A stretch of DNA of 41,654 bases, from NCBI GenBank assembly GCA_016235675.1, contig JACRJN010000013.1, positions 1 through 41,654 on the forward strand, written 5' to 3'. The notes under the pieces were generated by a model. It had not been told where the DNA came from, made no database searches, and was given only the letters and a program-made list of their open reading frames with translations. This document shows, piece by piece, positions 6,445 through 24,730 of this stretch. The stretch is from Candidatus Schekmanbacteria bacterium. Its GTDB lineage: Bacteria > SZUA-182. Each line of letters starts with the position of its first letter. Positions within the stretch are counted from its first letter, which is position 1. Made by a program: the position numbers and the translations under genes.

Positions 6445-7914
6445 TTACAAAAGCGTGGTTAACGACTTATAGGCTAAATCATAAAACACGCCGGGATTGA
6501 TTCCCATGTAAACGGTTATCGCTGCCATAACAAAGAGCATAAAGGCTAACAGCCCGGCTCCCTCTTTTTCAATCATTAATTCGGGAGACGGTTCGTGCAT
6601 ATACATCATAACCATTACACGCAAATAGTAATAGGCTGAAATAATGGCGTTTATAACACCCACCACCGCAAGCCAGATCATATTAGTCTTAATTGCCGCA
6701 GCAAACAGCCAGATTTTGCCCATAAACCCGCCGGTCGGCGGCACCCCCAGCATCGACATCACAAAGATACTCATGACCATGGCTGCCAGGGGGGAAACCT
6801 TGGCCAATCCTTTAAAATCATTATAATTATCGCCCCAGCGCCCACCCTCTTTACAGATATAAATTATAACTCCAAACGCTCCGACATTGGAAATTAAATA
6901 GACGATAAAGTAAAATACCACACTGACTACGCCCATCTCGCGGGAGACACCGGCGGCCACAATTCCCATCAGGGCATAGCCGATATGGGTGATACCCGAA
7001 TAAGCCAGCATTCTTTTAATATTTTCCTGCTTTAATGCCAGAAAATTGCCCAAACTCATGGTAAGCGCCGACAAAATTGCCATCACCGGCATCCAATGGC
7101 CGCTCAACGGATGCACAGCCACTACAAAAACCCGCAGGACCGCGGCCATCGGCGCTATTTTGGCGGCTGTAGCAATATAGGCCGTAATCGGCGTCGGCGC
7201 TCCTTCGTAAACATCGGGCAGCCACATATGAAAAGGCACCGCACCGATTTTGAAGCCGAATCCGGCTATCAATAGTATTACCCCGACCAATAACGCCGGA
7301 TCGGATTTAACCCCGGCTTTTACGATATAATCCTGTATCGCGTAGATGTTAAGCTGTCCGGTTATGCCATAAACCAGCGATATGCCGTACACCATAATCG
7401 CCGAAGCCAGTGAACCCATAAGGAAATATTTCATTGCCGCTTCGCTTGACCGCTCATCATGTACCATAAAGGCCGTCAGTACATAAGCCGGGATAGCCAG
7501 CAACTCCAGCCCCAGATAAATAGTGACCAGACTGATGCCGTCGCCGACCAGCAGGATGCCGACACAAGCAAACAACAATAGCACAAAATATTCGCCCCGC
7601 CACATATCGACTTTCTTAAAATAGGGAATCGAGATTACGATAACAAAGGCGGTAACGCTCAAGGTTAAAAATTTGAGGCAAATGGAGAAATAATCGACTG
7701 CTATCGATTTTGAGAAAACAATAAATTCCTGACCCCACTGAGGAACAGTAAACATCATCGCGATCAGCAAACCCAGCAATGATACCGCCGCCAGCATAAC
7801 CGGCTGCTCTTTTGGGCGTAAAAAATCCCAGGTAAAAACCAAAAGCGCAACGGCTGTGACGATAATCTCAGGCAATATATATAATGTATCTAACCATAAC
7901 TGCTGAGCAGTCAT
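6445..7914 (-). CDS. nuoN: NADH-quinone oxidoreductase subunit N
   Basis: A 489-residue antiporter-type membrane subunit of complex I with about 14 membrane segments. Key proton-channel residues are present: E137 in TM5 (LGLELLAIPAYV), K222 in TM7 (GFGFKIGAVPFHMWLPD) and K252 (ATAAKIAPMA). The motif WLPDVYEGAPTPITAYIATA is characteristic of NuoN rather than NuoM or NuoL. It is the last gene of the operon, as in most bacteria. It is separated from nuoM by 255 bp filled with two palindromic repeats, which is unusual for a complex I operon. Confidence 0.97.
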   Translation of the reverse strand: MTAQQLWLDTLYILPEIIVTAVALLVFTWDFLRPKEQPVMLAAVSLLGLLIAMMFTVPQWGQEFIVFSKSIAVDYFSICLKFLTLSVTAFVIVISIPYFKKVDMWRGEYFVLLLFACVGILLVGDGISLVTIYLGLELLAIPAYVLTAFMVHDERSSEAAMKYFLMGSLASAIMVYGISLVYGITGQLNIYAIQDYIVKAGVKSDPALLVGVILLIAGFGFKIGAVPFHMWLPDVYEGAPTPITAYIATAAKIAPMAAVLRVFVVAVHPLSGHWMPVMAILSALTMSLGNFLALKQENIKRMLAYSGITHIGYALMGIVAAGVSREMGVVSVVFYFIVYLISNVGAFGVIIYICKEGGRWGDNYNDFKGLAKVSPLAAMVMSIFVMSMLGVPPTGGFMGKIWLFAAAIKTNMIWLAVVGVINAIISAYYYLRVMVMMYMHEPSPELMIEKEGAGLLAFMLFVMAAITVYMGINPGVFYDLAYKSLTTLL

Positions 7915-7983
7915 ATCGGGAAACTCCTTGTTTTAATACCTGCCAACATAGTAGAACGTTTCATTAAAACATCTACATTCAAT

Positions 7984-8068
7984 TGTCATTGCGAGGCAGT
8001 CTTATCGCCGAAGCAATCTCGGAAGTGCCCGGTAGAATCGAGATTGCTTCGCTCCGCTCGCAATGACA
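7984..8068. repeat. Family A palindrome (hybrid arms) between nuoN and nuoM
   Basis: It starts TGTCATTGCGAGGCAGTCTT and ends CTCCGCTCGCAATGACA, with the same arm combination as at 5709-5789 but a different loop. Confidence 0.75.
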
Positions 8069-8073
8069 GGTTT

Positions 8074-8164
8074 GTAGCCCACCAAATTTGATGGCCTGAC
8101 ATTATTTATGCCGGTCAAATATTAGCCAGGAATAGTTTAAAATGGTGGGCAAAGCCCACCCTAC
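8074..8164. repeat. Family C repeat next to the nuoM stop codon
   Basis: It shares GGCCTGACATTATTTATGCC and the terminal GGGCAAAGCCCACCCTAC with the copies at 5593 and 37249. The right end lies about 8 nt beyond the nuoM stop codon. Confidence 0.75.
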
Positions 8165-8169
8165 TATTG

Positions 8170-9717
8170 CTACTTAGCCGACGACGGCCCTGATCGCATC
8201 ATCGCTACCAAATTTTCAACAGAGGGGTCAATAACGTCTAAGAAAGGCTTAGGATATAACCCGACCCAGAAAATCATAATCACCAATGGCACCAAAATCA
8301 TAACTTCCCTGAAATTTAAGTCTTTAAGCTTGTGGTTGGCCGGATTAGTTATTTCTCCCAGCATCGCCCGCTGAAAAAGCCAAAGCAGATAGGCCGAACA
8401 CCCTAATATCCCCAGAATGCAGACAATACCGAATGTCATGCTCACTTTAAATGTACCCATCAATATTAATAATTCGCCGACAAAACCGTTGAATCCCGGC
8501 GCCCCCATCGAGGAAAGCATGACAATTACGAAAAAGGTGGTATACCAGGGAATTTGTTTGAACAACCCGCCGTATTCGGTAATTAACCGGGTATGCCGAC
8601 GCTCATAAATCATGCCTATCATCAAAAAGAGCGCCCCAGTGCTTACTCCGTGATTCAGCATTTGGATTACACCGCCGCTGATACCCTGCTGGTTTAAAAC
8701 AAATATGCCCATCGTGATATAACCCATATGGCCGATACTGGAATAGGCAATCAATTTTTTCATATCCTCCTGATTGAAAGCCACCCATGAGGCATAAATA
8801 ATCGCGATGGCTGATAAAATCAGCGCAATATGTCCATATTCACGACAAGCATCGGGCAAAAGGGGCAAAGAGAAGCGGATAAACCCGTAAGTACCCATTT
8901 TTAAAAGAATTCCCGCCAAAATAACACTACCTACGGTCGGTGCATCGGTGTGGGCGTCCGGCAGCCAGGTATGAATAGGAAACATTGGCACCTTGACCGC
9001 AAACCCGACAAAGAGTGTCCAGAATACCCAGGCTTGAATCCCCATGGGGATGTTTACTTGATACAATTTTAATAAATCGAAGGTATATTCGGGATGGATA
9101 TTATACGCGATCGCGTAATTATGATAGTTGAAATATATTGCCATAATACCTAAAACCATGGGGAAACTGCCCACTATGGTAAAGATGAAAAATTTCAGGG
9201 TCGAATAAATCCGCCGGCTGCTTCCCCATATCCCGATGATTAAATACATCGGCGGGAGCATCGCTTCCCAGAAAACATAAAACAACAGCAAATCCAGGGC
9301 GACAAAAGTACCAAGCATACCGGTCTGCAATAACAGCAGGCAAATCATCAATTCCTTGACCTGGCTGGTTATGTCCCGCCAGCAGGCCAGGACTACCAAC
9401 ACCCCCATTAAAGTAGTCAGAATCACTAAAAACAAACTGATACCGTCAACCCCCAGATGATAACTGGAACCGATCGCTTTAAACCAGGCAAACTTTTCCA
9501 CAAATTGCATTTTGGCTGTATTTTGCCGGAAGCCGACTAAAAGAAATAAGGATATTACAAAATCCACCCCGGCAACAGCCAACGCGGCACAGCGTAACAG
9601 GGTTTGTCTTTTAGAATTTATCAACATTAAAAACAACGCCCCGATAGCCGGTAAAAATACCACTATGCTTAACAGGGGAAAGCCTATTGATTCTTTATAA
9701 CTTATAGAACCGAGCAC
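8170..9717 (-). CDS. nuoM: NADH-quinone oxidoreductase subunit M
   Basis: A 515-residue canonical NuoM, an antiporter-type proton channel of the complex I membrane arm. Visible landmarks: E151 in TM5 (LLLFYVFWEAMLPPMYLIIG), K242 in TM7 (FAVKVPMFPIHTWLPDAHTD) and K273 (AGILLKMGTYGF). The start is a GTG at 9717 with AGGAGT about 9 nt upstream. It lies between nuoL and nuoN as usual, but with repeats on both sides. The WEAMLPPMY and WLPDAHTDAPT signatures separate it from the two MrpD-like subunits encoded upstream. Confidence 0.97.
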   Translation of the reverse strand: MLGSISYKESIGFPLLSIVVFLPAIGALFLMLINSKRQTLLRCAALAVAGVDFVISLFLLVGFRQNTAKMQFVEKFAWFKAIGSSYHLGVDGISLFLVILTTLMGVLVVLACWRDITSQVKELMICLLLLQTGMLGTFVALDLLLFYVFWEAMLPPMYLIIGIWGSSRRIYSTLKFFIFTIVGSFPMVLGIMAIYFNYHNYAIAYNIHPEYTFDLLKLYQVNIPMGIQAWVFWTLFVGFAVKVPMFPIHTWLPDAHTDAPTVGSVILAGILLKMGTYGFIRFSLPLLPDACREYGHIALILSAIAIIYASWVAFNQEDMKKLIAYSSIGHMGYITMGIFVLNQQGISGGVIQMLNHGVSTGALFLMIGMIYERRHTRLITEYGGLFKQIPWYTTFFVIVMLSSMGAPGFNGFVGELLILMGTFKVSMTFGIVCILGILGCSAYLLWLFQRAMLGEITNPANHKLKDLNFREVMILVPLVIMIFWVGLYPKPFLDVIDPSVENLVAMMRSGPSSAK

Positions 9718-9744
9718 TTTTGATGACTCCTGTGATGATTCTCT

Positions 9745-9790
9745 GTAGGGTGGGCTGTGCCCACCAATTGGTGGGCACAGCCCACCCTAC
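9745..9790. repeat. Perfect 46-bp palindrome (short family C)
   Basis: The sequence from GTAGGGTGGG to CCCACCCTAC is its own reverse complement with no loop, centred on CCAATTGG. It lies about 28 bp past the nuoM start on the upstream side. Confidence 0.9.
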
Positions 9791-9835
9791 TAAATTCAAA
9801 TCGCCAATAAACATAAAATAATAATCAGCAAAAAC
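9791..9835 (-). pseudogene. Duplicated 3' tail of nuoL
   Basis: Read on the minus strand this encodes FLLIIILCLLAI and a stop, nearly the same as the NuoL C-terminus VLLIIILCLMAI. Together with the adjacent palindrome it duplicates about 80 bp of 10044-10125. It is not expressed as a protein on its own; it marks a past duplication between nuoL and nuoM. Confidence 0.8.
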
Positions 9836-9841
9836 ATCAAT

Positions 9842-9913
9842 TAATATCGTAGTCCCAGCCCTTTAGGGCTGATTTTCTAATATCGTAGTCCCAGCCCTTT
9901 AGGGCTGATTTTC
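9842..9913. repeat. Two tandem copies of a 36-bp unit (half of family B)
   Basis: Units at 9842-9877 and 9878-9913 are identical, each containing CGTAGTCCCAGCCCTTTAGG. Only one arm of the usual family B palindrome is present in each. A third, diverged B-like stretch follows at about 9991-10040. Confidence 0.85.
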
Positions 9914-10043
9914 ATGGCATTAGCCATGCAATAATGACTCACAAACGGTTAAATCTTCTCTATAATTCAATATCTCCCGGATGAACATACCTTTAGTCTC
10001 AGCCTAAGCTGAAAATGCGTGGCTAAAGCCACGGGACTACATT

Positions 10044-10080
10044 GCTGTGCCCACCAATTGGTGGGCACAGCCCACCCTAC
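10044..10080. repeat. Truncated copy of the perfect family C palindrome
   Basis: It is identical to 9754-9790 but lacks the first nine bases of that palindrome. It abuts the end of nuoL, whose stop codon is at 10086. Confidence 0.85.
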
Positions 10081-10085
10081 TAAAG

Positions 10086-12617
10086 TTAAATCGCCATTAA
10101 GCATAAAATAATAATCAGCAAAACACCGCTGATCATCGCCAGGGCATAATGCTGGAAAAATCCGGTCTGGGTACGGCGGGAGGCGGAGCCAAGAGAACTG
10201 ACCCCTTCAGCGGTTACATTAACTATTCCGTCTACAAAAGAACTGTCCAAAATGGCAAATACCTTACAAATGACTATATAAAATTTGGCTGTATAAGGCT
10301 GCCACGGCCCGCGTTCTTTCCAGGCGCGGGGCAAAATATATTTGTCCCATTTGGCTAGCGCGCTGCGCATATCGGCCAGCGGGAACCAGAGATACAACAT
10401 AAACTTAACAATAAACGAGTCGACAAAGCTGTCGACTACGGCAACCGGGCCGGTACATAAACGTCTGAATATATAATAAATCTGGTTAGTGTTGATAATA
10501 ACAAAATAGACAAATCTATCGAATACGGCCACCGGGCCGCAGCAAAAACGCTTGAAGAGGTGATACACCTTTTCATAATAATACCCGAACTGGCAATTTC
10601 CCGGCACTTCGATATGAAACCAGCCGAAACGCATACCGAGGATAAAATACATCCCCCCCAGCATAATCGCGGTACCGCCCCCCAACAGATTATGAATTAC
10701 CGCCGCCAGCGCATCGGGAGCGCCGTTACCGACCAAATAGAGGATGGGAATAGTGGATTTGGCCAGGCCTGCCGGGGCATGAACATTATAAATCATATGG
10801 TAGGCATGTGAACCGGGGTTAAAACCAAAAACCGCCAAGGCCGGCCCGATCAGGGTCTCCAGCATCCAGTTGGGACGCAATCCGATAAAGAGGATGGCAA
10901 AAGATACTAATATTATCGCTACGTGCATGGCCCGCGGCGGCGCTTCCACATCGGCATATTTTTCGGGACGCTTGCCCAGGCAGGTCAGGGCGAAAAGCTT
11001 CATGTTAGAGGCAAAGGTTCCCCCTGCCGTAATCATAAAAATGATCTCGGCCAGCTTTAGTTTATAATCCTTCACCCCGCCGCCCAAATGCGCCGAATGA
11101 TCATAAGCCTCCAGTATGGCGTGATGCAATAAAGTCTTGCTGGCAAACCCGTTGAAACAGGGAATACCGGCGATGCCGCAGGCCGCGATAAACAGCCCCA
11201 AGGCCACAATCGGCATATTCTTCCTCATCCCGCCCAGCTTATACATATCCAGTTCATGGGTGCGATAATACATGGCGCCGACGCCCAGGAACAAGGCGCA
11301 TTTGAATAAGGCATGATTAACCATATGATAAATCGACCCGGCCAATCCCATCGCCCCATCTGATCCCATATATGCGGCGCAGCCGATTCCCATAACGATA
11401 TAGCCCATCTGGCTGACGCTGTGGAAGGCCAGCATCCGCTTGGAGTTAGCGGTTATCAGTGCTGCCAACACCGCCAGGAACATACTGACGATACCCACCC
11501 AAATCACGGCGTAGCCGATATTACTCATAGTCGCCCACTGTTTGAGATATTGGGTAAGGGTAAAACTTTTGGGTAAAAATAATAAGCAAACCACCCGAAA
11601 AATGCCGTATGCGCCCGCCTTAATCATGGCTCCGGATAACAGAGCGCTGGCGGGAGTCGGCGCCACCGGATGGGCGGCGGGCAGCCAGATATGCTCTAAA
11701 AACACCCCGGCTTTGCCTCCAAAACCGATAATCATCAGGACGGCGATAATATACTTGGTAGCCGGGGTCATCCTTAAAGCTGCGGCATCGCTGATGGGCA
11801 GGATATTGACCGTACCGGTATACTTATAGAATAAGGTAATACCGGTCAGCAGGGTTAAACTGGAGATTACTCCCAGGTACAGATAAAGATTGGCTCCCCG
11901 CAGCGCGCCGGGGTCTTCTTTATGGGCTACCAGGGAATAAGGGAACAGAATCAAGCCTTCGAAAAAGAAAAACAGGCTTAAAAAATCACCGGTGAGCAAC
12001 ACCCCCAAATTCGCGCCTAAGGCGGAAAGCATAAAATAGTCGTAACGGGTGCGATTTTCCTCAATGGTCATATACCCGATGGCATAGATACCGGATAATA
12101 TCCACAGAAAATTGGTAACGTAGGCCACAGTCAGGGCCGCAGCATCCACCCGGAAGGTAAAATCGAAGCCCGGCAAAAATTTATAGGCGCAATAAATGCC
12201 TTGATATAATTTCCCGTTTAGGCTTATGCCGTTGACAACCGGCCCGTACATCAGGATTAACAAAAGCATGGTCAGGGTACAGGTACCTACCACCACGCAA
12301 TTGCGCTGTTTATCATTTTCTTTGCGGGATACGGCAATCAGCCCCCCGATCAGGGGAAGCAGTATCGCCCACAACGGCAGATTCGCGGTCCAGGAAATTT
12401 TAGCGGTCACCGGCCCGGCTATCTGGCTGTGATGTTCCTCATGCGCACCATTGTGACTTGCGGCTGCATTATGTCCCGGCTGTCCCTGCTTGACGGCATG
12501 TACGGCATGTTCTTCAGCCGAAACGCTGGTTATCCCAGATTGCCCAAATAGCGCAAAATAAACAGCCAGTATTAATGACAAGCCTACAAATAAGGTTAAA
12601 GCTTTTCTCTTGCTCAC
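10086..12617 (-). CDS. nuoL: Enlarged NADH-quinone oxidoreductase subunit L (antiporter subunit with extended lateral-helix region)
   Basis: An 843-residue protein, against about 610-650 for a usual NuoL. Residues 1-34 resemble a signal peptide (SITSVSA-EE-type end); 35-66 are His-rich (HNAAASHNGAHEEHHS). The antiporter core spans about 78-585, with E220 (FFFFEGLILFPYS), K302 (GFGGKAGVFLEHIWLP), K333 (GAMIKAGAYG), K393 and K439. A membrane segment at about 644-663 is followed by the lateral-helix region (676-815), which is much longer than usual and contains a 29-residue tandem repeat (G694-P695/D700 and G723-P724/D729). The C-terminus (VDGIVN, then RRTQTGFFQHYALAM) is the NuoL-specific final helix. 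The core is MrpD-like. Two conserved motif positions differ: FLEH for FPxH, and WLPAAH for WLPDAH. GTG start with GAGGAA upstream. Confidence 0.9.
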   Translation of the reverse strand: MSKRKALTLFVGLSLILAVYFALFGQSGITSVSAEEHAVHAVKQGQPGHNAAASHNGAHEEHHSQIAGPVTAKISWTANLPLWAILLPLIGGLIAVSRKENDKQRNCVVVGTCTLTMLLLILMYGPVVNGISLNGKLYQGIYCAYKFLPGFDFTFRVDAAALTVAYVTNFLWILSGIYAIGYMTIEENRTRYDYFMLSALGANLGVLLTGDFLSLFFFFEGLILFPYSLVAHKEDPGALRGANLYLYLGVISSLTLLTGITLFYKYTGTVNILPISDAAALRMTPATKYIIAVLMIIGFGGKAGVFLEHIWLPAAHPVAPTPASALLSGAMIKAGAYGIFRVVCLLFLPKSFTLTQYLKQWATMSNIGYAVIWVGIVSMFLAVLAALITANSKRMLAFHSVSQMGYIVMGIGCAAYMGSDGAMGLAGSIYHMVNHALFKCALFLGVGAMYYRTHELDMYKLGGMRKNMPIVALGLFIAACGIAGIPCFNGFASKTLLHHAILEAYDHSAHLGGGVKDYKLKLAEIIFMITAGGTFASNMKLFALTCLGKRPEKYADVEAPPRAMHVAIILVSFAILFIGLRPNWMLETLIGPALAVFGFNPGSHAYHMIYNVHAPAGLAKSTIPILYLVGNGAPDALAAVIHNLLGGGTAIMLGGMYFILGMRFGWFHIEVPGNCQFGYYYEKVYHLFKRFCCGPVAVFDRFVYFVIINTNQIYYIFRRLCTGPVAVVDSFVDSFIVKFMLYLWFPLADMRSALAKWDKYILPRAWKERGPWQPYTAKFYIVICKVFAILDSSFVDGIVNVTAEGVSSLGSASRRTQTGFFQHYALAMISGVLLIIILCLMAI

Positions 12618-12633
12618 TGCAATTTATTCCTCT

Positions 12634-12801
12634 GTAGTTGCCCAATTCATTGGGCACAACCCACCCTACTGGTAGCACAGGCATCCTGCCTGTGTATTGC
12701 GGCATAGCATGGAAGCTCTTGATTTAACCCACCACTTCCAGTAATTGTACCGTTTTTGTGTGGGCGTTGCCCACATCACAGGCAAGATGCCTGTGCTACC
12801 A
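12634..12801. repeat. Mosaic of palindromic repeats (families H, C and I)
   Basis: At 12638-12668 a family H arm (TAGTTGCCCAATTCATTGGG) is joined directly to a family C end (CCCACCCTAC). At 12671-12693 and 12777-12801, GTAGCACAGGCATCCTGCC and GGCAAGATGCCTGTGCTAC form a long inverted repeat around an 83-bp interior. No gene is seen in it. Confidence 0.65.
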
Positions 12802-12814
12802 TTCTCTTGCTGTG

Positions 12815-12871
12815 CTGTCAGGAGTTACCTCCTGACAGCTTTTTTTAACGTTTGATAGCGAATTGGTATTA
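12815..12871. repeat. Family E hairpin plus one family K arm
   Basis: GCTGTCAGGAGTTA faces ACCTCCTGACAGC, followed by the K arm ending TAGCGAATTGGTATTA. The arm ends on the stop codon of the neighbouring 177-residue gene. Confidence 0.7.
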
Positions 12872-13402
12872 ATGCTCCCCCATACCCAATATCCCATAGG
12901 TCATTAAAGAAACGCCCAATCCGGCTTTCAGCAAAAACTTGATAAATCCCCAGATATTGGGTTCGTGGTAATGTGCCAGCGTTGAATTCTGCTCCATAAT
13001 AAACATCGCTAATACCAAAATCACTAACACCTTATCCAGCATGGTCGGCTGCGGATGATGCCCTCCATGATCCGCACTTTCAGGCGGTTGTGCATGTGCC
13101 GCCGCTTCATGTCCCCCTAATTGGGTCATGCGCTGTAAATTCTGCTCTTTGGCCGCGATATGGTGTCCTTTTAAAAACTGCGTCACGCGGTAAACACAAA
13201 ATATCAACAGCAACCAATAAATAAAATAACCGGCAGGCGCCCCGTGATGTTCCGGGTTATGGGCAGCGGAAGGCTTTTCGTGCTTTGCCGCGTTATGTGT
13301 TTCGGCCTGTGCGCTCTGATGATATGCGACAATTTCCATCCCGCAAAAAATAATCATAATCAGCAAACAAATTGCCGGAATAAATTTTTTTACTTTACTC
13401 AT
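12869..13402 (-). CDS. His-rich membrane protein of unknown function inside the complex I operon
   Basis: A 177-residue protein that I do not recognise. It has about four hydrophobic segments (8-28, 58-77, 121-137, 151-173) and 16 histidines, mostly in two hydrophilic loops at 28-53 (YHQSAQAETHNAAKHE, NPEHHG) and 98-116 (GHEAAAHAQPPES, DHGGHH). It is not a NuoA/J/K homologue by any motif that I can see. It lies between the second extra antiporter gene and nuoL on the same strand with no separate promoter apparent, so co-expression with the complex is likely. Its N-terminus (MSK, basic, hydrophobic, then His-rich) resembles that of the NuoL protein. A new accessory subunit or metal-binding assembly factor is possible; both are inferences. 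Confidence 0.8.
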   Translation of the reverse strand: MSKVKKFIPAICLLIMIIFCGMEIVAYHQSAQAETHNAAKHEKPSAAHNPEHHGAPAGYFIYWLLLIFCVYRVTQFLKGHHIAAKEQNLQRMTQLGGHEAAAHAQPPESADHGGHHPQPTMLDKVLVILVLAMFIMEQNSTLAHYHEPNIWGFIKFLLKAGLGVSLMTYGILGMGEH

Positions 13403-13415
13403 ATTTTCCCTAATC

Positions 13416-13510
13416 AGGCTCCAGGCTTTGGGCTTCAGGCTTCAGGGACAGAAAGAGACTCTCCTCCTGGAGGGTATTTGAATTAGCCCAAAGCCCGAAG
13501 CCTGGAGCCT
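13416..13510. repeat. Inverted repeat (family L) between two operon genes
   Basis: AGGCTCCAGGCTTTGGGCTT at the left faces a right arm ending GAAGCCTGGAGCCT. The arms are purine- and pyrimidine-biased and enclose about 45 bp. It fills most of the 138-bp gap. Confidence 0.7.
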
Positions 13511-13540
13511 AATATAAACTTCTATGTCCCCAACAGACTA

Positions 13541-15124
13541 TTAATGGAATAATAACTGACTGGCCTGCTGCGCCAATCCAATCGGCAATTGCGGGAAAAT
13601 CCCGAAGAAAACAATACATGCACCTAAGATAATAAGCGGTATTTTCATCCACAGGCCGGGATCATCGTTTCCTGCCGGCAGCGGATGTTTGATGTGGCTC
13701 TGCATATTGCCCTGACCATGGGCAGAACTTTGATTATGCGCATGGTCATTATTATGGCTGTTTACAGGATAACCGGCCGCGGTATTTACCTTGCCGAACC
13801 AGGCTCCGTAGATCACCGGGCCGTAATAGATTAAATTCATCAGACTGCTTAACATCAATAACAGCACCGCTCCCGTCCCTACCCAATTGGGCTGAGTGCC
13901 GATCTGGGTCGCTTCAAGCGCGCCCAATGCCAGAAACCACTTGCTGATAAAACCGTTGAAAGGCGGAAACCCAATCATGGATAAAGCCGCCAGGGTAAAA
14001 CAGGCGGTGGTTACCGGCATCCGTTTGCCGATCCCTTTTAAATCGACTAATTGACGCAGCCCGGTCTGGGCGATAAAAGCCCCGGCGCACAAAAATAACG
14101 TTCCTTTGATAATCGCATGATTAAAAATATGCACCACTCCACCCGTTAACGCCTTGGGAGACATCAGAGCTACTCCCAGAATTATATATCCCATTTGTGA
14201 GATACTGGAATACGCCAGCATCCTTTTTAGTTCCGTTTGTTTTATGGCGACAGCCGACCCCAAAAATATATTAATCACGGCAAAAATCAATAAAATGGAG
14301 GTAACGGTTTGCCCCCGTAAAACTCCTGTCCCCATAATGGTGTATACCGTCCGGATTATCCCATAGGCGCCCGCTTTAATCATAACCCCAGACAACAGTG
14401 CGCTGGCGGGCGACGGCGCAACCGGATGGGCATCCGGCAGCCAGATATGCACCGGAAACAACCCGGCTTTAACCCCGAATCCGACGATAAAGCAAAGAAA
14501 TATGATCGCCACCATCGGGTTCCCGGCAAATCTTCCGCTGATTTTGGCAATTTCCACCAAATCGCCCGTGCCGGTTATGGCATAGGTGGAGATAATGGCA
14601 AACAACAAAATCAAGCCGCCGCATACACCCATAAAGATGTATTTCAGACCGGCTTCAGCAGCATCCGGACTTTCTTCATGAATCACCATCACATAGGAAG
14701 CGATACTGAGCATTTCAAAAAAGAGGTAGAGGGAAAACAAATTTTTGGTAAAAACCACCCCCATCATTCCGGTCAAAGAAAGCAGGGAAAAGACATTATA
14801 GCGACACTGGGCATGTTCATGCGCCATGTACTTTACCGAGAAAACAGATGCCAGCATCCACATGAATATAGCGATTAATCCGGCAAGCATAGATAAAGCA
14901 TCGGCCATAAAAGCCAATTGGACATTCAGCCCGGTATTTAAAGTACAGTGGATCGTATTCCCGTCGCTTATGGCAGGATACATCGAGGCGACGATTAAAA
15001 AGTCTAAAACCATGCTCCAGACCAGCAGGCGATTGCCTTTTGCATCGGATAAAAAAGGCAAAAATATAATGGTCAGTGCCGGAACCAGAACTGCAAGAAA
15101 CGGTCTTATGCTCTCAATTATCAT
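13541..15124 (-). CDS. Additional complex I antiporter-type subunit, MrpD/NuoM-like (second of two)
   Basis: A 527-residue proton-translocating-antiporter family protein with about 14 membrane helices. Functional residues are present: E137 in TM5 (LFFEMLSIASYVM), K219 in TM7 (GFGVKAGLFPVHIWLPDAHP), K250 (GVMIKAGAYGIIR), K300 and K340 (NHAIIKGTLFL). The APSPASALLSG and MIKAGAYG motifs are typical of MrpD and HyfB rather than canonical NuoM or NuoN. Residues 457-480 form a His-rich loop (HNNDHAHNQSSAHG) near the last helix. It lies between nuoK and nuoL, where ordinary operons have nothing. I predict it is a fourth or fifth proton channel of the same complex; a separate Mrp-type antiporter is less likely because no mrpB/C/E/F/G are nearby. 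Confidence 0.9.
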   Translation of the reverse strand: MIIESIRPFLAVLVPALTIIFLPFLSDAKGNRLLVWSMVLDFLIVASMYPAISDGNTIHCTLNTGLNVQLAFMADALSMLAGLIAIFMWMLASVFSVKYMAHEHAQCRYNVFSLLSLTGMMGVVFTKNLFSLYLFFEMLSIASYVMVIHEESPDAAEAGLKYIFMGVCGGLILLFAIISTYAITGTGDLVEIAKISGRFAGNPMVAIIFLCFIVGFGVKAGLFPVHIWLPDAHPVAPSPASALLSGVMIKAGAYGIIRTVYTIMGTGVLRGQTVTSILLIFAVINIFLGSAVAIKQTELKRMLAYSSISQMGYIILGVALMSPKALTGGVVHIFNHAIIKGTLFLCAGAFIAQTGLRQLVDLKGIGKRMPVTTACFTLAALSMIGFPPFNGFISKWFLALGALEATQIGTQPNWVGTGAVLLLMLSSLMNLIYYGPVIYGAWFGKVNTAAGYPVNSHNNDHAHNQSSAHGQGNMQSHIKHPLPAGNDDPGLWMKIPLIILGACIVFFGIFPQLPIGLAQQASQLLFH

Positions 15125-15159
15125 AAACTCAAACTCCCTAAACTGTGGGTAAATTTATT

Positions 15160-15334
15160 TTCACCACGAAGCACACGAAGCACACGAAGAATTACAAATG
15201 CTATTTTTTAAGGGTAATGCAGCCAAACGTGAAAAGTTTACCGCTTGAAAAAAGGTAAAAAAACAAAATAACTAGTTATAATATTTAATTAAACTATTTG
15301 TTTTTTCGTGATCTTCGTGTGCTTCGTGGTGAAA
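15160..15334. repeat. Inverted repeat with CACGAAG units (family F)
   Basis: TTCACCACGAAGCACACGAA at 15160 is matched by TTCGTGTGCTTCGTGGTGAA ending at 15333. The interior is AT-rich with no gene. A related A-C-C-G-C-A-A-A-G-A-C-G-type stretch is at 41297-41325. Confidence 0.7.
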
Positions 15335-15368
15335 AAAGTATACCTATACTTTCACGCCAAGAGGCATC

Positions 15369-16856
15369 TTAAGGAACGTAGCCCAATAACCCCGCTAAAG
15401 CCGGTTTTCCCAGCCAATGCGGGACAAATCCCCCCAACCCGAAGGCGACAGAGGCAATCGTGACAATTATTATCGGTACCCACATGGCAGCCGGCGCCTC
15501 ACTGCCTAAACGCGAGGTGTCGTGATGAAAATGAAACGCCCCCTCTTCTTCCTTGCGGAAAAACGCCTTGAAGATCGGGGGAAAAAAATAACCCAGTTCG
15601 ATGATGCCGCTCACCAGAAACAGCGCGGCCATCAGCGGCTTTTTCATCGTCAGATAGCCTTGCATCAGATACCACTTGCTCACCCAGCCGCAGACCGGCG
15701 GCAATCCGATAATCCCCACCGCAGCGATGGCAAAACAAGTCATGGTAATCGGCATATGGCGGGCTAAGCCGCCCATTTTGGCGATATATTTATTGCCGCT
15801 TTGGGTAATAATGGCGCCGGCGCAATAAAAGAGGGTAATCTTCATAAAAGCATGAAAATAAACATGCAATATGCCGCCCATCATGCCTGTCGCCTGAAAA
15901 GACACTAACCCCAGCAAGACATAACTCAACTGGTTGACGGTCGACATCGCCAGCATTTTTTTAAGCTCTGTCTGGCGCAGACCTAAAATCGCCCCCCCCA
16001 GCACCGTCAAAGCCGCCATAAACATGATTACATTGTCGAACCCCATCTTATGGTACAAATCTGGGCCGAAAACATTGAAGATAACCCTGGTAAATCCGAA
16101 CAGCCCCACATTGACGACCGCCACAGCATGTAAAACGGCGCTAATCGGGGTCGGCGCAACCATGGCCTCCGGCAGCCAATAATGTAAGGGGATCAGCGCG
16201 GCTTTAAAGCCGAAGCCGAAGGTAAGTAAGACAAAAAGCAGTATCAAAAATCCCTGGCTTTGCGCGGCTAAACCGGGAATCCCGCCGGTAGTGAAATTAA
16301 CCGTCCCGGTTTTCAGATAAATCAAAACCGTGGCAAAGAGCACCGCTGCACCGCCGCTCAATAAATAAGCGCCGTATAGTATCCCGGCGTCGTAAGCTTC
16401 TTTGGTTTCCTCATGAACCACCAGGGGATAGACGGCAATGGTCAGCATTTCGAAAAAGACGAAGAAGGTAATCAGGTTAGCGGAAAATGCGATCCCCATC
16501 GCCGCGGTGATATTGATAATCAGCGAGGCGTAATAGCGGGTTTGGGCGTGAGGCTCATGCTCCATATAACCGAAGGAGTAAATCACCGTTAAAATCCAGA
16601 GAAAGGTCATGGATAAGGCCAGATAGACTGACACAATCTCCACCCGGAAAACCATACTAAAGGAACTGGTCTCGACAAAGCGATAGATGATTTCCTGACC
16701 CAGCAGGGCCGGCGAAATATAGGTGCAGACCAGGATGAAATCCACAATGGCCGCAAAAAGACAGAAGAAATTACGCAGGCCGCGGGAACGCTCCCCCGCC
16801 ACATTTATCAGGACGGTGCAAATAATCGGCAGCAGTAAAATAATGGCCAGTTTCAA
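15369..16856 (-). CDS. Additional complex I antiporter-type subunit, NuoM/MrpD-like (first of two)
   Basis: A 495-residue antiporter-family membrane protein directly after nuoK (22-nt gap). E136 in TM5 (FFVFFEMLTIAVYPLVVHEE), K218 in TM7 (GFGFKAALIPLHYWLPEAM), H243 (SAVLHAVAVVNVG), K299 (TELKKMLAMS) and K339 (HAFMKITLFY) are present. The TM8 position holds His (LHAVAVVN) where the 527-residue paralogue has Lys, a NuoL/HyfF-like feature, although the NuoL lateral helix is missing. The start is TTG 16856 with AAGGAG 7 nt upstream. Close spacing to nuoK supports membership of the same complex. Confidence 0.9.
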   Translation of the reverse strand: MKLAIILLLPIICTVLINVAGERSRGLRNFFCLFAAIVDFILVCTYISPALLGQEIIYRFVETSSFSMVFRVEIVSVYLALSMTFLWILTVIYSFGYMEHEPHAQTRYYASLIINITAAMGIAFSANLITFFVFFEMLTIAVYPLVVHEETKEAYDAGILYGAYLLSGGAAVLFATVLIYLKTGTVNFTTGGIPGLAAQSQGFLILLFVLLTFGFGFKAALIPLHYWLPEAMVAPTPISAVLHAVAVVNVGLFGFTRVIFNVFGPDLYHKMGFDNVIMFMAALTVLGGAILGLRQTELKKMLAMSTVNQLSYVLLGLVSFQATGMMGGILHVYFHAFMKITLFYCAGAIITQSGNKYIAKMGGLARHMPITMTCFAIAAVGIIGLPPVCGWVSKWYLMQGYLTMKKPLMAALFLVSGIIELGYFFPPIFKAFFRKEEEGAFHFHHDTSRLGSEAPAAMWVPIIIVTIASVAFGLGGFVPHWLGKPALAGLLGYVP

Positions 16857-16878: not shown

Positions 16879-17181
16879 TTACCATTTCATTAAATTCATC
16901 TCATCGACTTTTACAGATCGATGCTGACGATAATAGACCAGCAGTATTGATAACCCGACCGCCGCTTCCGCCGCCGAAATACTGATGACAAAAATGGCGA
17001 ATATCTGGCCGCTTAAGTTCCCGCCGTTTACGGAAAAGGCCGTTAAATTGATTAATACCGCATTTAACATCATTTCAATGCACATCAAAATAATAACGAT
17101 ATTGCGCCGGGTTAAAACACCGACCAACCCGATAATAAACAAGGCTGCGCTCAATATCAAATACAGCGGCAAAGGAATCAT
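16879..17181 (-). CDS. nuoK: NADH-quinone oxidoreductase subunit K
   Basis: A 100-residue three-helix subunit, homologous to mitochondrial ND4L and MrpC. The two conserved membrane glutamates of the proton path are present: the first in ILMCIEMMLNAVLINL and the second in SISAAEAAVGLSILLVYYR. Length is normal. It starts 1 nt after the nuoJ stop codon. Confidence 0.97.
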   Translation of the reverse strand: MIPLPLYLILSAALFIIGLVGVLTRRNIVIILMCIEMMLNAVLINLTAFSVNGGNLSGQIFAIFVISISAAEAAVGLSILLVYYRQHRSVKVDEMNLMKW

Positions 17182-17182
17182 C

Positions 17183-17710
17183 TTATTCCGCCTTCTGTTT
17201 GGGGGGCATTTTTTTGGCCAAAACCACTACCCCAATAATGGCTACCAATAAAACCAGCGCGACCACTTCAAACGGCAAGATATAATCGCTAAATAAATAT
17301 TTAGCCACCAGTTCGCTGTTTCCGCCCCATTTAACTAATTCGGAGGCGATCATTCCCTCGCTGGTGTAATAACGGCCTTGCGGCACAAGTAACAAACCGA
17401 CTAAAACAAACAGAATAGCCGAAACTAAAACAGCCCATTTTGTTTGTTGGTGGTAACGCTCGTTTTTAGGTTCTTCCCGCAGATTGATTAAGATCACGAC
17501 AAACAGAAAGGAGATAATCACCGCGCCGGCGTTGACCAATATTTGTACTACTGCTAAAAATTCGGCTTTCAGCAACAAAAGTATGCACGCAGTAGTAAAA
17601 AAGGACAACAGCAGCCAAAATACGCTGAAAACTATTTTGCGCGCCGTTATCATCATAATTGCGGCTAAAACCGAGAGAAAAGCCAAGATAGCAAAGGTTA
17701 ATAAGGTCAA
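17183..17710 (-). CDS. nuoJ: NADH-quinone oxidoreductase subunit J
   Basis: A 175-residue five-helix membrane subunit (ND6 homologue). The conserved segment FLAVVQILVNAGAVIISFLF corresponds to the TM3 region that forms the pi-bulge hinge in complex I, and the C-terminal YILPFEVVALVLLVAIIGVV is characteristic. It is coupled to nuoK, and separated from nuoG by nearly 400 bp containing a nested repeat, so it may need its own ribosome entry but shows no obvious promoter. Confidence 0.96.
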   Translation of the reverse strand: MTLLTFAILAFLSVLAAIMMITARKIVFSVFWLLLSFFTTACILLLLKAEFLAVVQILVNAGAVIISFLFVVILINLREEPKNERYHQQTKWAVLVSAILFVLVGLLLVPQGRYYTSEGMIASELVKWGGNSELVAKYLFSDYILPFEVVALVLLVAIIGVVVLAKKMPPKQKAE

Positions 17711-18107: not shown

Positions 18108-20780
18108 TCATTCGTCAAGAAGGCGGATATTCACACGGGTTAATTTACTGACTTGCGTCTGTGTTTCTTGGTTCATCCGGCAGCCGGTAAATAAATTTAC
18201 CGGGGCGGAACTGAAATGTTTCGGGAGAAAAACCACTCCGGACGGATAACGATTATTTATCTTAACCTGGATAGCTAAACTATCCGCACAGTTTTCCACC
18301 AGAACTTTAGCGTTTTCCTGAATCCTAAGTCTTTCCGCATCGACCGGATTCATCTCCAGGCGAGGCTCTGGGCAAAGCAACTGCAATCCTCTGGTTTTAT
18401 TGCTCATGGTGCCTGAGAGATGATGAAATAATAACCCGCCGCTGATTAAGACAAACGGGAACGCTTTATCTTCATCTAACGGAACATATTGCACCGGATG
18501 AAAGCTTAACGGTTTTTTGAATTCGGCAAGATATTCGGCGCTTTTACCTTCGGCGCTCAACGGCCATTGCAAGCCCTTACTGCCTAAACTCTGGTAACGG
18601 ATACCGCTGTATATGGGCGATAATTCGCTGATTTCCTTCATAACATCCGCCGCCGAATTATATTTGAATTCATAACCGCAGGCTTTGGCTACCATCTGCA
18701 ATATTAACCTGTCGGATTTACTTTCCCCAATCGGCAAAACCGCCTGATTTATTTTTTGGATGCGGCGCTCGGTATTGGTGTATGTGCCGGTTTTCTCGGC
18801 AAAGGCGGCGGCAGGCAAAACCACATCCGCCAGTTGAGCGGTCTCAGTCAGGAAAATATCCTGAACTACCAAAAAGTCTAAGCTCTCCAGGGCTTTCTTA
18901 ACATTATTTTTTTGCGGGAATGAGGTAAGAGTATTTTCCCCGATAATATACATGGCCGTTATTTTCCCGGCGATTGCTGCATCGATCATTCCCATCAGGC
19001 TCAAGCCGGGAGCAGACGGTAATTGCGTATTCCAGGCCAGTTCGAATTTTTCCCGCACCTGCTCATCCCGAAGATCCTGATAGCCGGGCAGATAATCGGG
19101 CAGCGCTCCCACATCACAAGCACCCTGCACATTGCAACTGGTGCGCAGCGGATGAATACCGGTTCCCTTACGCCCTAAATTTCCGGTCAATAACAATAGA
19201 TTCAGCAAGGCATACACGTTATCTGCCGCATTTACCTGCTGTACCAGCCCATCCCCATAGACAATGCAGGCGGTCTCGGTTTGAGCAAACAACCGGGCGG
19301 CTTTCTCAAGCTCTTCTACAGAGACATTACAAATTTGCGCCACACTTTCCGGAGAAAATGCCTGAAGGTGTGAGACTAATTTCCCCAACCCCTTGGTTTG
19401 TTTTTCTACAAATTCTTTATTCAGCAGATTTTCATCAATTATAATACGCGCCAACCCGTTGAGTAACGCGGTATCGGTTCCCGGTTTAATTTGCAGCCAG
19501 GATTTGGCGAAAGGCACCAGATTCGAGCAAACCGGGTCGACCAGGATTAAATTTGCCCCACAGTTACGCACCGCCTGCTTGATCGCTAACCCCATAATGA
19601 CATGAGAGGATGTCGGATTAGCGCCGATTACCAAAATAGTCTGCGCCGTCTTTACCTCCTGAATGGAGTTGGTGGCGGCGGGGACACCTAAAACATCCTG
19701 CAAGACTGTCATGGATGGTGCATGTTCCAGACGGGCGTAATTATCGATATTGTTGGTTTTGAACACGGCCCGCATCAATTTCTGGAACAGATAATTTTCT
19801 TCATTGGTGCAACGGGTGGAAGCAATTGCCGCTATAGCCTGGCCGCCCTTTTCCTTAAAAATCAGCTTCAGCTTATCGGCAACATATTGAATTGCCTCAT
19901 CCCAGGTGGCCTGAGTGAAAACCCCGTCTTTCTTGATCAGAGGGTTAGTCAAACGGGTGGGGTGATTAATAAAATCGTAACCGAACCGCCCCTTGACGCA
20001 TAATAATCCCTCATTTCCGCCCAACTCATCATTGGTGCTGATTTTGACGACCTTGTTATTTTTATGTCTGAGGACTAAACTGCAACCGCAGCCGCAATAG
20101 GGGCAAACGGAGTTGGTTTGCTCCATCTCCCAAGGCCGGGCTTCGAACTTAGATAGTTTGCTGCTTAAAGCGCCTACCGGACAAACAGCCAGGCATTGCC
20201 CGCAGAATTCACAGTTAACCAGTTTTTTCTCCGGGTAACCGATGGTGGCCATCATCCCATGCCGGGTGTAACCTAATGCCCCGATGTTGCGGATTTCATC
20301 GCAGACCCGCACACATTTGCCGCAGAGCATACACTTTTGCAAATCCCTTTGGATAAAGCAATTGGTTTCATCCGGGTTCTTGGTCAGCGGGGCATGGAAA
20401 CCGAAGCGGTCTTCGGTGACCTGCAATCTGAAGGCCAGATTTTGCAGTTCGCATTCTCCGCCCTTGTCGCAGGTGAGGCAATCTAAAGGATGCTCCAACA
20501 GCAGCATTTCCAACAAGGTTTTACGGATACCGGTAATTTGCGGGGTATCGGTTTTGACCGACATGCCTTCCGCTACCGGGGTAGTACAGGCCGACACCAG
20601 GCGGGGCGATTCGTTGACCTCCACTAGGCATAAACGGCAGGCGCCGAACAGGGTCAAATGCGGGCTATAGCATAAGGTGGGAATATAAATATTGAATTTT
20701 CTGGCCGCAGCTAAAATTGTATCGCCTTCGCCGGCCTCTACGGCAATCTCGTTAATTATCAAATTGATTTTCTTGCTCAT
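18108..20780 (-). CDS. nuoG: NADH-quinone oxidoreductase subunit G-like protein with full molybdopterin-type domain
   Basis: An 890-residue peripheral-arm subunit. In order: a [2Fe-2S] ferredoxin domain (C37, C48, C51, C65), a His-Cys3 [4Fe-4S] site (H97, C101, C104, C110), two ferredoxin clusters (C150/153/156/160 and C190/193/196/200), the molybdopterin-family [4Fe-4S] site (C226, C229, C233, C261), then the molybdopterin oxidoreductase and dinucleotide-binding domains. The position that binds Mo/W in formate dehydrogenases (Cys/Sec in R-x-C/U-H-x-P) is Glu (E352 in ARLEHAPS), so formate oxidation here is doubtful. Start chosen at ATG 20780 with AGGAAA upstream; the upstream start at 20804 is inside a repeat. 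It lies between nuoI and nuoJ rather than before nuoH. No nuoE or nuoF is present in the window. Confidence 0.92.
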   Translation of the reverse strand: MSKKINLIINEIAVEAGEGDTILAAARKFNIYIPTLCYSPHLTLFGACRLCLVEVNESPRLVSACTTPVAEGMSVKTDTPQITGIRKTLLEMLLLEHPLDCLTCDKGGECELQNLAFRLQVTEDRFGFHAPLTKNPDETNCFIQRDLQKCMLCGKCVRVCDEIRNIGALGYTRHGMMATIGYPEKKLVNCEFCGQCLAVCPVGALSSKLSKFEARPWEMEQTNSVCPYCGCGCSLVLRHKNNKVVKISTNDELGGNEGLLCVKGRFGYDFINHPTRLTNPLIKKDGVFTQATWDEAIQYVADKLKLIFKEKGGQAIAAIASTRCTNEENYLFQKLMRAVFKTNNIDNYARLEHAPSMTVLQDVLGVPAATNSIQEVKTAQTILVIGANPTSSHVIMGLAIKQAVRNCGANLILVDPVCSNLVPFAKSWLQIKPGTDTALLNGLARIIIDENLLNKEFVEKQTKGLGKLVSHLQAFSPESVAQICNVSVEELEKAARLFAQTETACIVYGDGLVQQVNAADNVYALLNLLLLTGNLGRKGTGIHPLRTSCNVQGACDVGALPDYLPGYQDLRDEQVREKFELAWNTQLPSAPGLSLMGMIDAAIAGKITAMYIIGENTLTSFPQKNNVKKALESLDFLVVQDIFLTETAQLADVVLPAAAFAEKTGTYTNTERRIQKINQAVLPIGESKSDRLILQMVAKACGYEFKYNSAADVMKEISELSPIYSGIRYQSLGSKGLQWPLSAEGKSAEYLAEFKKPLSFHPVQYVPLDEDKAFPFVLISGGLLFHHLSGTMSNKTRGLQLLCPEPRLEMNPVDAERLRIQENAKVLVENCADSLAIQVKINNRYPSGVVFLPKHFSSAPVNLFTGCRMNQETQTQVSKLTRVNIRLLDE

Positions 20781-20795
20781 AATTTTCCTGCGTAG

Positions 20796-20858
20796 CGTAG
20801 TCACGTAGTGCCGGGGCTTTAGCCCCGGAAATTCAGCCCTAAAGGGATGGGACTACGT
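20796..20858. repeat. Family B palindrome between nuoG and nuoI
   Basis: It runs from GCGTAGTCACGTAGTGCCGG to ATGGGACTACGT, with an internal GGGGCTTTAGCCCC hairpin. It fills most of the 99-bp gap between nuoI and the nuoG start. Confidence 0.75.
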
Positions 20859-20879: not shown

Positions 20880-21383
20880 TTACTTAACCACCGTTTGCGG
20901 AGCAATGCCTTGCGCTCTTTCCTTTTCTTTGCGTTCGCGCCAGGCATGTCCTTGTTTTAACAGGGTCTCCTTATTCCTCAGCAACTCCTGCCGGCTATAC
21001 GTCGCGGTCTCGAATAAATCGGTAGATACCAGCGCCTTAACCGGGCAGATTTCCACGCACAAAGCGCAAAAAATGCAGCGGGTGACGTCGAGATTATACT
21101 CATCAATACGCTTGCGGTTATTCTCATCTACCGAGGTTTCCATGCGAATAGCATTACTGGGACAAACCCGGACACACAGACAACATCCGACACATAAATC
21201 TTTATCCGGGGTATCCGGACGGCGCACCAAAGCCACCTGTCCCCGGAATTGATCCGCCGGTATCCAGCGTTCATTGGGATACTGCATGGTAATCGGCTTA
21301 GTCCACATATATTTGAAGGTTAAAGCCATCCCCTGCAAAATGTCCCAAAAAATCATTTTACGCGCTGTATCTTTTATACTCAT
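20880..21383 (-). CDS. nuoI: NADH-quinone oxidoreductase subunit I
   Basis: A 167-residue 8Fe ferredoxin-type subunit carrying clusters N6a and N6b, which pass electrons from NuoG towards N2 in NuoB. The two motifs are CVGCCLCVRVCP and CIFCALCVEICP. The N-terminal amphipathic segment (GMALTFKYMWTKPITMQYP) is typical for anchoring to the membrane arm. Length is normal. Confidence 0.97.
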   Translation of the reverse strand: MSIKDTARKMIFWDILQGMALTFKYMWTKPITMQYPNERWIPADQFRGQVALVRRPDTPDKDLCVGCCLCVRVCPSNAIRMETSVDENNRKRIDEYNLDVTRCIFCALCVEICPVKALVSTDLFETATYSRQELLRNKETLLKQGHAWRERKEKERAQGIAPQTVVK

Positions 21384-21394
21384 AATCCGCTCTT

Positions 21395-21497
21395 ATTCCA
21401 AGTTGCGTTCAAAATGCTACAAATGTAGTTGCCCAATTCATTGGGCAGAAAGAACCTGATAAATCAGGTAACTACACTTTTGAACGCAACTTGGTAT
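21395..21497. repeat. Nested palindrome (outer family J, inner family H) between nuoI and nuoH
   Basis: ATTCCAAGTTGCGTTCAAAA at 21395 pairs with the right arm ending at 21497, which read backwards is ATACCAAGTTGCGTTCAAAA. Inside is TGTAGTTGCCCAA...CAGGTAACTACA. The outer arms resemble family K arms (ATACCAATTCGCTATCAAA). The right end touches the nuoH stop codon. Confidence 0.8.
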
Positions 21498-22564
21498 TAT
21501 TCGTAAAAGTGTTTACTGCACCAGGCGACACAGCCCACGGTGGTAAAAAAAGTGATCAGGTAATAGATCAATAAAGGGATACTATAAAACTTAAACAAAC
21601 CTACCAGAAAAATATTCAACAAAACCACCGGCAACAGCATTTTCCAACCCAGATACATCAATTGGTCGTAACGGATACGCGGTAATGTCGCCCTAAGCCA
21701 GATATAAAGGAAGAGAAAAAAGCCGATTTTCAGGCTAAACCAGACTATTTCCGGGACAACATCCAGGAAACTTAAAAACCCGACAGTCGGAAAAGGTCGC
21801 TGCCAGCCGCCGAGAAAACAAAGGGTGGCGATGGCGGAGATCAGAATCATATTGGCGTATTCCGCCAAAAAGAATACGGAAAAAGCCATGCCACTGTATT
21901 CCGTGTGAAAACCGCAAACCAACTCCCCTTCCGCTTCCACCATATCGAAAGGCACCCGGTTGGTTTCCGCCACGCCCGAAATCAAAAAGACCACGAATGC
22001 CAGCGGCTGCAAAAAAATAAACCAATAACCGGCTTGTTCCTGGGCGGCGACCATTTTACTCATACTAAATGAACCGGACAGCATGACCGGCCCGATCAAG
22101 GCCAATATCAACGGCACTTCATAGCTGATCATCTGGGCCACAGATCGTAATGCGCCCATCAAAGAATATTTGCTGTTGGAAGACCAGCCGCCGATCACGA
22201 TCCCATACATTCCCAACGAACTGGCCGCCAGGATAAATAAAAGGCCGATATTCACATCGGTAATTTGCCAAACTGGCGCACCGGCAAAGGGAATTACCGC
22301 AAATGGTACTAAGGCGAAAACCAAGGTTATAACCGGTGCAATTAAAAATAAAAGCGAATCTGCGCCGGTGGGGACAATCAATTCCTTAGTGGCCAATTTG
22401 ACGCCGTCGGCAATCGGCTGCAACAACCCGTGCCAGCCTACCCGCATCGGGCCGTGACGGATCTGCATCCGCCCCAAAATTTTGCGTTCCGCCCAGGTTA
22501 TATAGGCGATAACCACCAGTAATATATTGACCATCAATACGGTTTTCATGATCGTGGCGATCAT
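21497..22564 (-). CDS. nuoH: NADH-quinone oxidoreductase subunit H
   Basis: A 355-residue membrane subunit (ND1 homologue) that forms the quinone chamber with NuoB and NuoD. Landmarks: AERKILGRMQIRHGPMRVGW after TM1, LLQPIADGVKL, and the acidic TM5-6 loop AETNRVPFDMVEAEGELVCG followed by FHTEYSGMAF. Length is normal. Its start overlaps the nuoD stop codon by 4 nt, where nuoE and nuoF would separate them in the classical order. Confidence 0.97.
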   Translation of the reverse strand: MIATIMKTVLMVNILLVVIAYITWAERKILGRMQIRHGPMRVGWHGLLQPIADGVKLATKELIVPTGADSLLFLIAPVITLVFALVPFAVIPFAGAPVWQITDVNIGLLFILAASSLGMYGIVIGGWSSNSKYSLMGALRSVAQMISYEVPLILALIGPVMLSGSFSMSKMVAAQEQAGYWFIFLQPLAFVVFLISGVAETNRVPFDMVEAEGELVCGFHTEYSGMAFSVFFLAEYANMILISAIATLCFLGGWQRPFPTVGFLSFLDVVPEIVWFSLKIGFFLFLYIWLRATLPRIRYDQLMYLGWKMLLPVVLLNIFLVGLFKFYSIPLLIYYLITFFTTVGCVAWCSKHFYE

Positions 22565-23733: not shown

Positions 23734-24223
23734 CTAAATCCACCTTATATTGACGGTCACCCTGCAACGGATAATCTTTGCGCAAGGGATGTCCTTCCCA
23801 ATCATCCGGCATAAAAATTCTACGCATATCGGGGTGATTGTTAAATTTTATTCCGAACATGTCGAATACTTCCATCTCCAAAAGGACGGCGGCAGCCCAA
23901 ATCCCGGTGACCGAATCCATTTGAGGGTCGTCTTCCGGCACCGGAACACACATTCTTAATTTATGATTATTTTTAAGTGAATAAAGTTGGTATAACACCT
24001 CGAAACGCTGGTCTTTGCGGGGATAATCGACGGCGGTTAAAAAAGATAAATACTTTAAATCCAGGTGGGTATCGTCATGTAAAAAACGGGCTATCTCCAG
24101 CAAAAATTCTTTTTTTACGGTTATAATATCAATATCTTTGGCCTTGGTAACGGCTAAAACCGCTTGTGGGGAATTTTTCTTCACAGAATCGATCAGACTC
24201 TGCATATTTTTTATTTCGCTCAT
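23726..24223 (-). CDS. nuoC: NADH-quinone oxidoreductase subunit C
   Basis: A 165-residue 30-kDa-type subunit. The family signature is clear in the C-terminal half: EVFDMFGIKFNNHPDMRRI and DDWEGHPLRKDYPLQG. It packs on NuoD in the connecting module. Start at 24223 with AGGAATAGG upstream, 8 nt after nuoB. Confidence 0.97.
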   Translation of the reverse strand: MSEIKNMQSLIDSVKKNSPQAVLAVTKAKDIDIITVKKEFLLEIARFLHDDTHLDLKYLSFLTAVDYPRKDQRFEVLYQLYSLKNNHKLRMCVPVPEDDPQMDSVTGIWAAAVLLEMEVFDMFGIKFNNHPDMRRIFMPDDWEGHPLRKDYPLQGDRQYKVDLDA

Positions 24224-24231: not shown

Positions 24232-24720
24232 CTATTCCTTATTTTTTACCAAGATATGATGATTCTTGATCATTTCTTGAATTTTTATCAATCCGTAAAG
24301 CAGCGCCTCCGGACGGGGAGGACAACCGGGGACATAAACATCCACCGGGATTATTTTATCCACGCCCTGCAACACCGCATAAGTATTGAACAACCCCCCG
24401 GAGGTGGCGCAGCTTCCCATGGCAATTACGTAACGGGGTTCCGGCATTTGATCATACAGGCGTCTGACCGCCGGAGCCATTTTATTGGTCACCGTTCCGG
24501 CGACTATCATCAGATCGGACTGGCGGGGTGTGGCGCGGAAAACCTCCGAACCAAAGCGGGCGATGTCATAGCGGGGAGCCGCCGCCGCCATCATTTCGAT
24601 CGCACAGCAAGCCAAACCGAAGGTCATCGGCCACAGCGAAGAATAGCGCGCCCAATTAATTACCTCATCGACCCTGGCGGTGATTATATTCGATTCGAAT
24701 TTATTTTCCAGCAATCCCAT
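24232..24720 (-). CDS. nuoB: NADH-quinone oxidoreductase subunit B
   Basis: A 162-residue PSST-type subunit that binds cluster N2, the last Fe-S centre before quinone. Ligand motifs: tandem cysteines in [10 protein letters not shown], then [11 protein letters not shown] and [17 protein letters not shown] chose ATG 24720 ([10 protein letters not shown]) with AAGGGAT upstream; an in-frame start at 24768 would overlap nuoA and has no support. It is 10 nt from nuoA. Confidence 0.97.
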
Positions 24721-24730
24721 GCTTATCCCT

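Follow-up and report, generated by a model that had tools for sequence, protein, structure and literature searches.

Canonical complex I carries three antiporter folds in its membrane arm, and the question raised by this locus is whether an operon with five antiporter-type genes encodes a correspondingly longer enzyme. The window, the whole 41,654-nucleotide stretch analysed here, is contig C24 of a Candidatus Schekmanbacteria metagenome-assembled genome (MAG; 2.98 Mb, 190 contigs, about 90% complete). Open reading frames and Pfam/NCBIfam profiles place on its minus strand, from 25093 to 6445, the gene order NuoA-B-C-D-H-I-G-J-K-X-Y-orphan-L-M-N, made up as follows:

24731..25093, minus strand: NuoA (PF00507, 123 bits)
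24232..24768, minus strand: NuoB (PF01058, 111 bits)
23726..24223, minus strand: NuoC (PF00329, 155 bits)
22561..23733, minus strand: NuoD, quinone type (PF00346, 379 bits; FGPQHPATHGVLR motif read in the sequence)
21497..22564, minus strand: NuoH (PF00146, 417 bits)
20880..21383, minus strand: NuoI (TIGR01971 above cut-off)
18108..20804, minus strand: NuoG-type protein with a formate-dehydrogenase-like C-terminal part (TIGR01591 673.7 bits, cut-off 666; TIGR01973 below cut-off)
17183..17710, minus strand: NuoJ (PF00499)
16879..17181, minus strand: NuoK (NF004320 above cut-off; PF00420)
15369..16856, minus strand: X, 495 aa, MrpD-like antiporter subunit of the PRK07234 type (PF00361, 209 bits)
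13541..15124, minus strand: Y, 527 aa, MrpD-like antiporter subunit of the PRK08375 type (PF00361, 242 bits)
12869..13402, minus strand: orphan, a 177-aa membrane protein (no Pfam/NCBIfam match)
10086..12617, minus strand: L, 843-aa antiporter subunit at the place of NuoL (PF00361, 175 bits)
10149..10565, minus strand: L residues 685-823, its 139-aa lateral region, which contains a 29-residue tandem duplication
8170..9717, minus strand: NuoM, canonical (TIGR01972, 613 bits against a cut-off of 264; NuoM clade, support 1.0)
6445..7914, minus strand: NuoN, canonical (TIGR01770, 423 bits against a cut-off of 333; NuoN clade, support 1.0)

The operon contains the set that marks a respiratory complex I, with the Q-module subunits NuoB, C, D and I and the membrane subunits NuoH, A, J and K all encoded in it. 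Its NuoD, the only one in the genome, reads GPQHPATHG and lacks the CxxC motif of NiFe hydrogenases, and as a quinone-type subunit without CxxC it rules out a hydrogenase or Ech-type origin (group 4 NiFe, Hyf/Mbh). Neither NuoE nor NuoF is encoded in the window operon; 11-subunit forms of complex I without these two are known, and NuoE/F-like genes and NuoE-F-G-like sets are present elsewhere in the genome. The NuoG protein passes the formate dehydrogenase family score, but a glutamate occupies the position of the Mo-ligand Cys/Sec (ARLEHAP), as it does in genome G003, and we do not claim that function for it. A perfect match to the sigma-70-like promoter consensus (TTGACA-17-TATAAT, minus strand, 25222-25250) stands a short way ahead of nuoA, and a second site that agrees at 11/12 positions lies between the G and J genes (18042-18071, minus strand); going by this consensus match, J to N may be under a promoter of their own. 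A terminator-like hairpin (CAGCCCTTTAGGGCTG) occurs in two identical copies, 36 bp apart, on the plus strand in the gap between L and M (9856-9907).

X, Y, L, M and N all match the Proton_antipo_M family (PF00361) at E <= 1e-50. The original prediction, made from the sequence alone, that two extra full-length antiporter genes of 495 and 527 codons lie between nuoK and L on the minus strand is borne out by the reading frames and the PF00361 matches, and the TM5 glutamates and TM7 lysines that it quoted for all five proteins prove exact on alignment to E. coli NuoL/M/N (X E136/K218, Y E137/K219, L E220/K302, M E151/K242, N E137/K222). The charge in TM12 is likewise kept in five of five (X K394, Y K395, L K494, M E415, N K400), while the TM8 position that is lysine in NuoM and NuoN is Asn249 in X and threonine in E. 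coli NuoL.

The identity of the 843-aa protein, previously called NuoL, had to be revised. Its best curated models are HyfB and MrpD, with NuoL far below cut-off, and in a FastTree phylogeny of the antiporters (SH-like supports) it lies apart from E. coli NuoL within a clade of mostly Mrp-linked proteins, which together rule out an ordinary NuoL. The protein has an N-terminal extension and a long C-terminal lateral region, and its predicted core matches MrpA (Z 41.0) and NuoL (Z 40.7) equally, a common fold that does not discriminate between the two. For X and Y the best models are PRK07234 and PRK08375, ‘putative monovalent cation/H+ antiporter subunit D’, at scores below their cut-offs; X falls in a clade with the MrpD-like subunit of rhizobial green complex I and Mrp X proteins, and Y in a clade of its own. 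By profile and phylogeny NuoL is replaced in this operon by three Mrp-type subunits, X, Y and L, plus the orphan, M and N being true NuoM and NuoN. As the operon has no canonical NuoL, L would be needed to complete the arm. The orphan, for which three long helices and a His-rich linker are predicted, sits beside Y and L whether the cluster is of complex I or Mrp type, with homologues in the complex-I-bearing genomes G003, G005, G007 and STD1_102 and in Mrp clusters, and its predicted model (mean pLDDT 68) has no fold match in the PDB.

The phylogeny bears on the original prediction from both sides. X, Y and L all sit in Mrp-type clades, and the X and Y families are mostly Mrp-associated, which weighs against an extended complex I; on the other side, the X copies linked to complex I group together (support 1.0) to the exclusion of the Mrp-linked X of the same genome, and the ORF list and Pfam reveal no MrpE, F, G, B or C gene in the window operon. 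The Mrp-type ancestry of X, Y and L, from clades of cation/proton antiporters, and the presence of the same module in a true Mrp cluster of this genome could mean that the arm does contain five antiporter folds, but that X and Y, or all of X-Y-L, carry Na+ or K+ or idle, leaving H+/2e unraised. We judge this unlikely, as the key proton-path charges are all kept and the Mrp E, F, G, B and C subunits, thought to be required for cation transport, are not in the operon.

A same-class comparison found eight other genomes. The order K-X-Y-orphan-L-M-N, whose conservation had been proposed as a check, is kept from J onwards (J-K-X-Y-orphan-L-M-N) in G003 and G005, which belong to another family, and is found in pieces in G007 of a third family, with J-K-X-Y on one contig, M and N on a second and a seemingly frameshifted L on a third. 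In G005 an in-frame stop splits the Y gene (L049 15213-16736), which may be a sequencing error or reflect decay of one pump. The Elusimicrobia MAG UBA5214 has A-B-C-D-H-I-J-K-X-Y-L-M-N, without the orphan and with an L of rhizobial type, and the MAG STD1_102 has A-B-C-D-H-I-J-K-X-Y-orphan-Y'-L-M-N-E-F-G, six antiporters in one complete operon of the 14-subunit type. Because homologous genes stand in the same order in other genomes, a chance origin of the arrangement is excluded. In UBA5214 an Mrp cluster lies immediately upstream, and its X and Y are the sister proteins of the complex I X and Y (support 0.985 and 0.997), which points to an independent and later uptake of Mrp subunits there. 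STD1_102 (L161 373-8544) and G005 (L050 153-10178) also carry a doubled NADH-input set, E-F-G ... cNMP-binding-like ... E-F', in which F' is about 600 aa long with extra ferredoxin domains (by Pfam in G005, by similarity in STD1_102).

The host genome encodes 19 antiporter-family proteins, and its other modules show the same parts in different settings. Contig C56 (L021 7707-19496) carries an Mrp antiporter, E-F-G-B-C-D followed by X-Y-orphan-L, with four antiporter subunits. X-Y-orphan-L is a portable cassette, found here with MrpEFGBCD and in many phyla, and it could form a separate Mrp-like antiporter that is only co-transcribed with the complex I genes. This we consider improbable: the complex I operons have neither Mrp E/F/G/B/C/D nor another NuoL, several lineages have the cassette enclosed between J-K and M-N, and the complex-I-linked X copies stand in a clade of their own. 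A second Mrp cluster, E-F-G-B-C-D-X-Y without L, is found on contig C45 (L022 7381-14729), and contig C47 (L023 8310-10517) has an isolated L-type gene, its C-terminal region long, beside a UspA-like gene; this gene and the C45 cluster may belong together.

Contig C50 (L020 4672-18561) encodes J-K-M-M-N-X-Y-orphan-L, with two NuoM, and its end overlaps the start of contig C150 by exactly 141 bases. C150 (L176 367-3627) contributes H, A and a regulator-like protein, probably a sigma-54-type AAA+ regulator from its reading frame. Joined, the two contigs give a six-antiporter arm, A-H-J-K-M-M-N-X-Y-orphan-L, without B, C, D or I. A repeat where the contigs were broken in assembly might account for the 141-base overlap, yet the gene order of G007 supports the join, with A-H-J-K-M on its contig C57 and N-X-Y-orphan on its contig C38. 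The host genome (G000) has two NuoH to one NuoD. With 19 antiporter-family proteins and two membrane arms for that one NuoD, the paralogues could be alternatives that swap within a three-subunit arm. We find this very hard to credit, as every operon of this kind, whichever the genome, has a single X, Y, L and N in the same order, and a three-subunit arm would not call for lateral regions of L as long as these.

The lateral region of the L-type proteins, measured between a common aromatic/Lys anchor and the last TM, offers a further view of arm length. It is 45 residues long with three antiporters (E. coli), 74 with four (Ensifer green complex I), 97 (UBA5214), 110 (G003 and G005) and 139 (window) with five, and 216 (C50) and 213 (STD1_102) with six. 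Among complex I clusters it thus lengthens with antiporter count, on points that are few and partly related, and the step from five to six exceeds one unit. Tandem duplications are detected in L of 29 residues in the window, 26 in C50 and 25 in STD1_102 (0 of 500 shuffles reach the score), and judging from these repeats the lengthening is in part by duplication of 25-29 residues; an insert of 26 residues for one extra pump is a published pattern (PMC9040806). Lateral length is not a universal pump counter, as this region spans 184 and 235 residues in the two Mrp-linked L proteins measured, each of which goes with four antiporters. AlphaFold models of single-chain L have low confidence in this region.

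Gene order, conservation across families and phyla, the intact proton-path residues and the long lateral region favour the extended complex I with five antiporter subunits that was originally proposed. Our preferred reading, which we hold to be probable, is that the operon encodes such an enzyme, in which the Q-module, H-A-J-K, N and M are retained and NuoL gives way to X-Y-L and an accessory protein, with five antiporter folds per arm. The subunits would co-assemble in one arm in the putative physical order K-N-M-X/Y-L. Quinone chemistry at NuoB/D/H would power a relay along the membrane arm's charged axis, which would pass five antiporter folds as against three in canonical complex I. The distal position probably falls to L, whose long lateral region would reach back along the other subunits and tie them together. 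Coupling of all units, ion identity and stoichiometry we infer: if each antiporter and the E-channel moves one ion, by analogy with the canonical four, about 5 + 1 ions would be translocated per 2e. Six ions/2e would suit a low-potential donor or reverse electron flow; with NADH and menaquinone, our arithmetic has a five-pump enzyme stall at ordinary ion-motive force, and this weighs against the proposal. No heme-copper or bd oxidase is recognisable in the host genome (a MAG about 90% complete), which has one gene of the futalosine menaquinone route and, from ORF reading, CooS-like and Rnf-like proteins, features that fit an anaerobe. With no recognisable heme-copper or bd oxidase and with a menaquinone-pathway gene, the enzyme could plausibly work anaerobically from a low-potential donor, or else in reverse electron flow.

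The five-pump class itself is not new. A five-subunit form had been thought undescribed, but Complex_I_3 of Ca. Manganitrophaceae, with 2 MrpD + 2 NuoM + NuoN, is already published (PMC9040806, mBio 2022). The window operon resembles it in its five antiporter-type subunits, MrpD-like subunits in the place of NuoL and a longer lateral helix, and differs, going by the text of that paper, in combining X, Y and L with one NuoM, NuoN and the orphan. Four pumps are attributed to rhizobial green complex I (Degli Esposti & Martinez-Romero 2016, as cited in PMC9040806), where Mrp-type subunits in the place of NuoL are known (PMC9040806) and the defining feature is an MrpD-like pair between K and M. Its operon in Ensifer canadensis (pT173d) has the comparable order J-K-X-(small ORF)-L-M-N, with X of the same clade and position, but it has four antiporters, no Y and an L of another clade, whereas three antiporters lie between K and M in the window; its small ORF of 84 aa has no similarity to the orphan detectable by hhalign, and homology of the two was rejected. 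The Nitrospira 2M complex I, with four pumps (Chadwick et al. 2018, as cited in PMC9040806), likewise has an extra antiporter and a lateral-helix insert, but as represented there it has gained a second NuoM while keeping NuoL, where the window has one NuoM and the C50 arm two. Mrp antiporters of the C56 type share a homologous X-Y-orphan-L cassette with extended L, but have MrpE/F/G/B/C/D, absent from the window operon, and lack redox subunits. No description of a six-antiporter complex I was found in the open-access papers that were searched. Within that literature the X-Y-L composition, the six-pump arms and repeated Mrp recruitment appear to be undescribed.

How many ions complex I moves per electron pair, and how the signal is passed along its arm, are open questions at the centre of research on the enzyme. 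Naturally occurring arms with three, four, five and six antiporters and lengthening lateral regions allow one to ask whether each unit moves one ion and whether the lateral region limits arm length, and STD1_102 provides a single operon with all the parts and six pumps. We put forward only tentatively the wider possibility that arm length is modular, such that a five-pump enzyme and a six-pump arm borrowing the single BCDI set gear the same redox module to different ion/2e ratios, with Mrp pumps recruited more than once and the lateral helix lengthened by 25-29-residue duplications. Repeated entry of Mrp modules, as the sequences suggest, would also matter for the evolution of complex I, and if the parts assemble as the genes indicate, the number of ions moved per electron pair would be adjustable.
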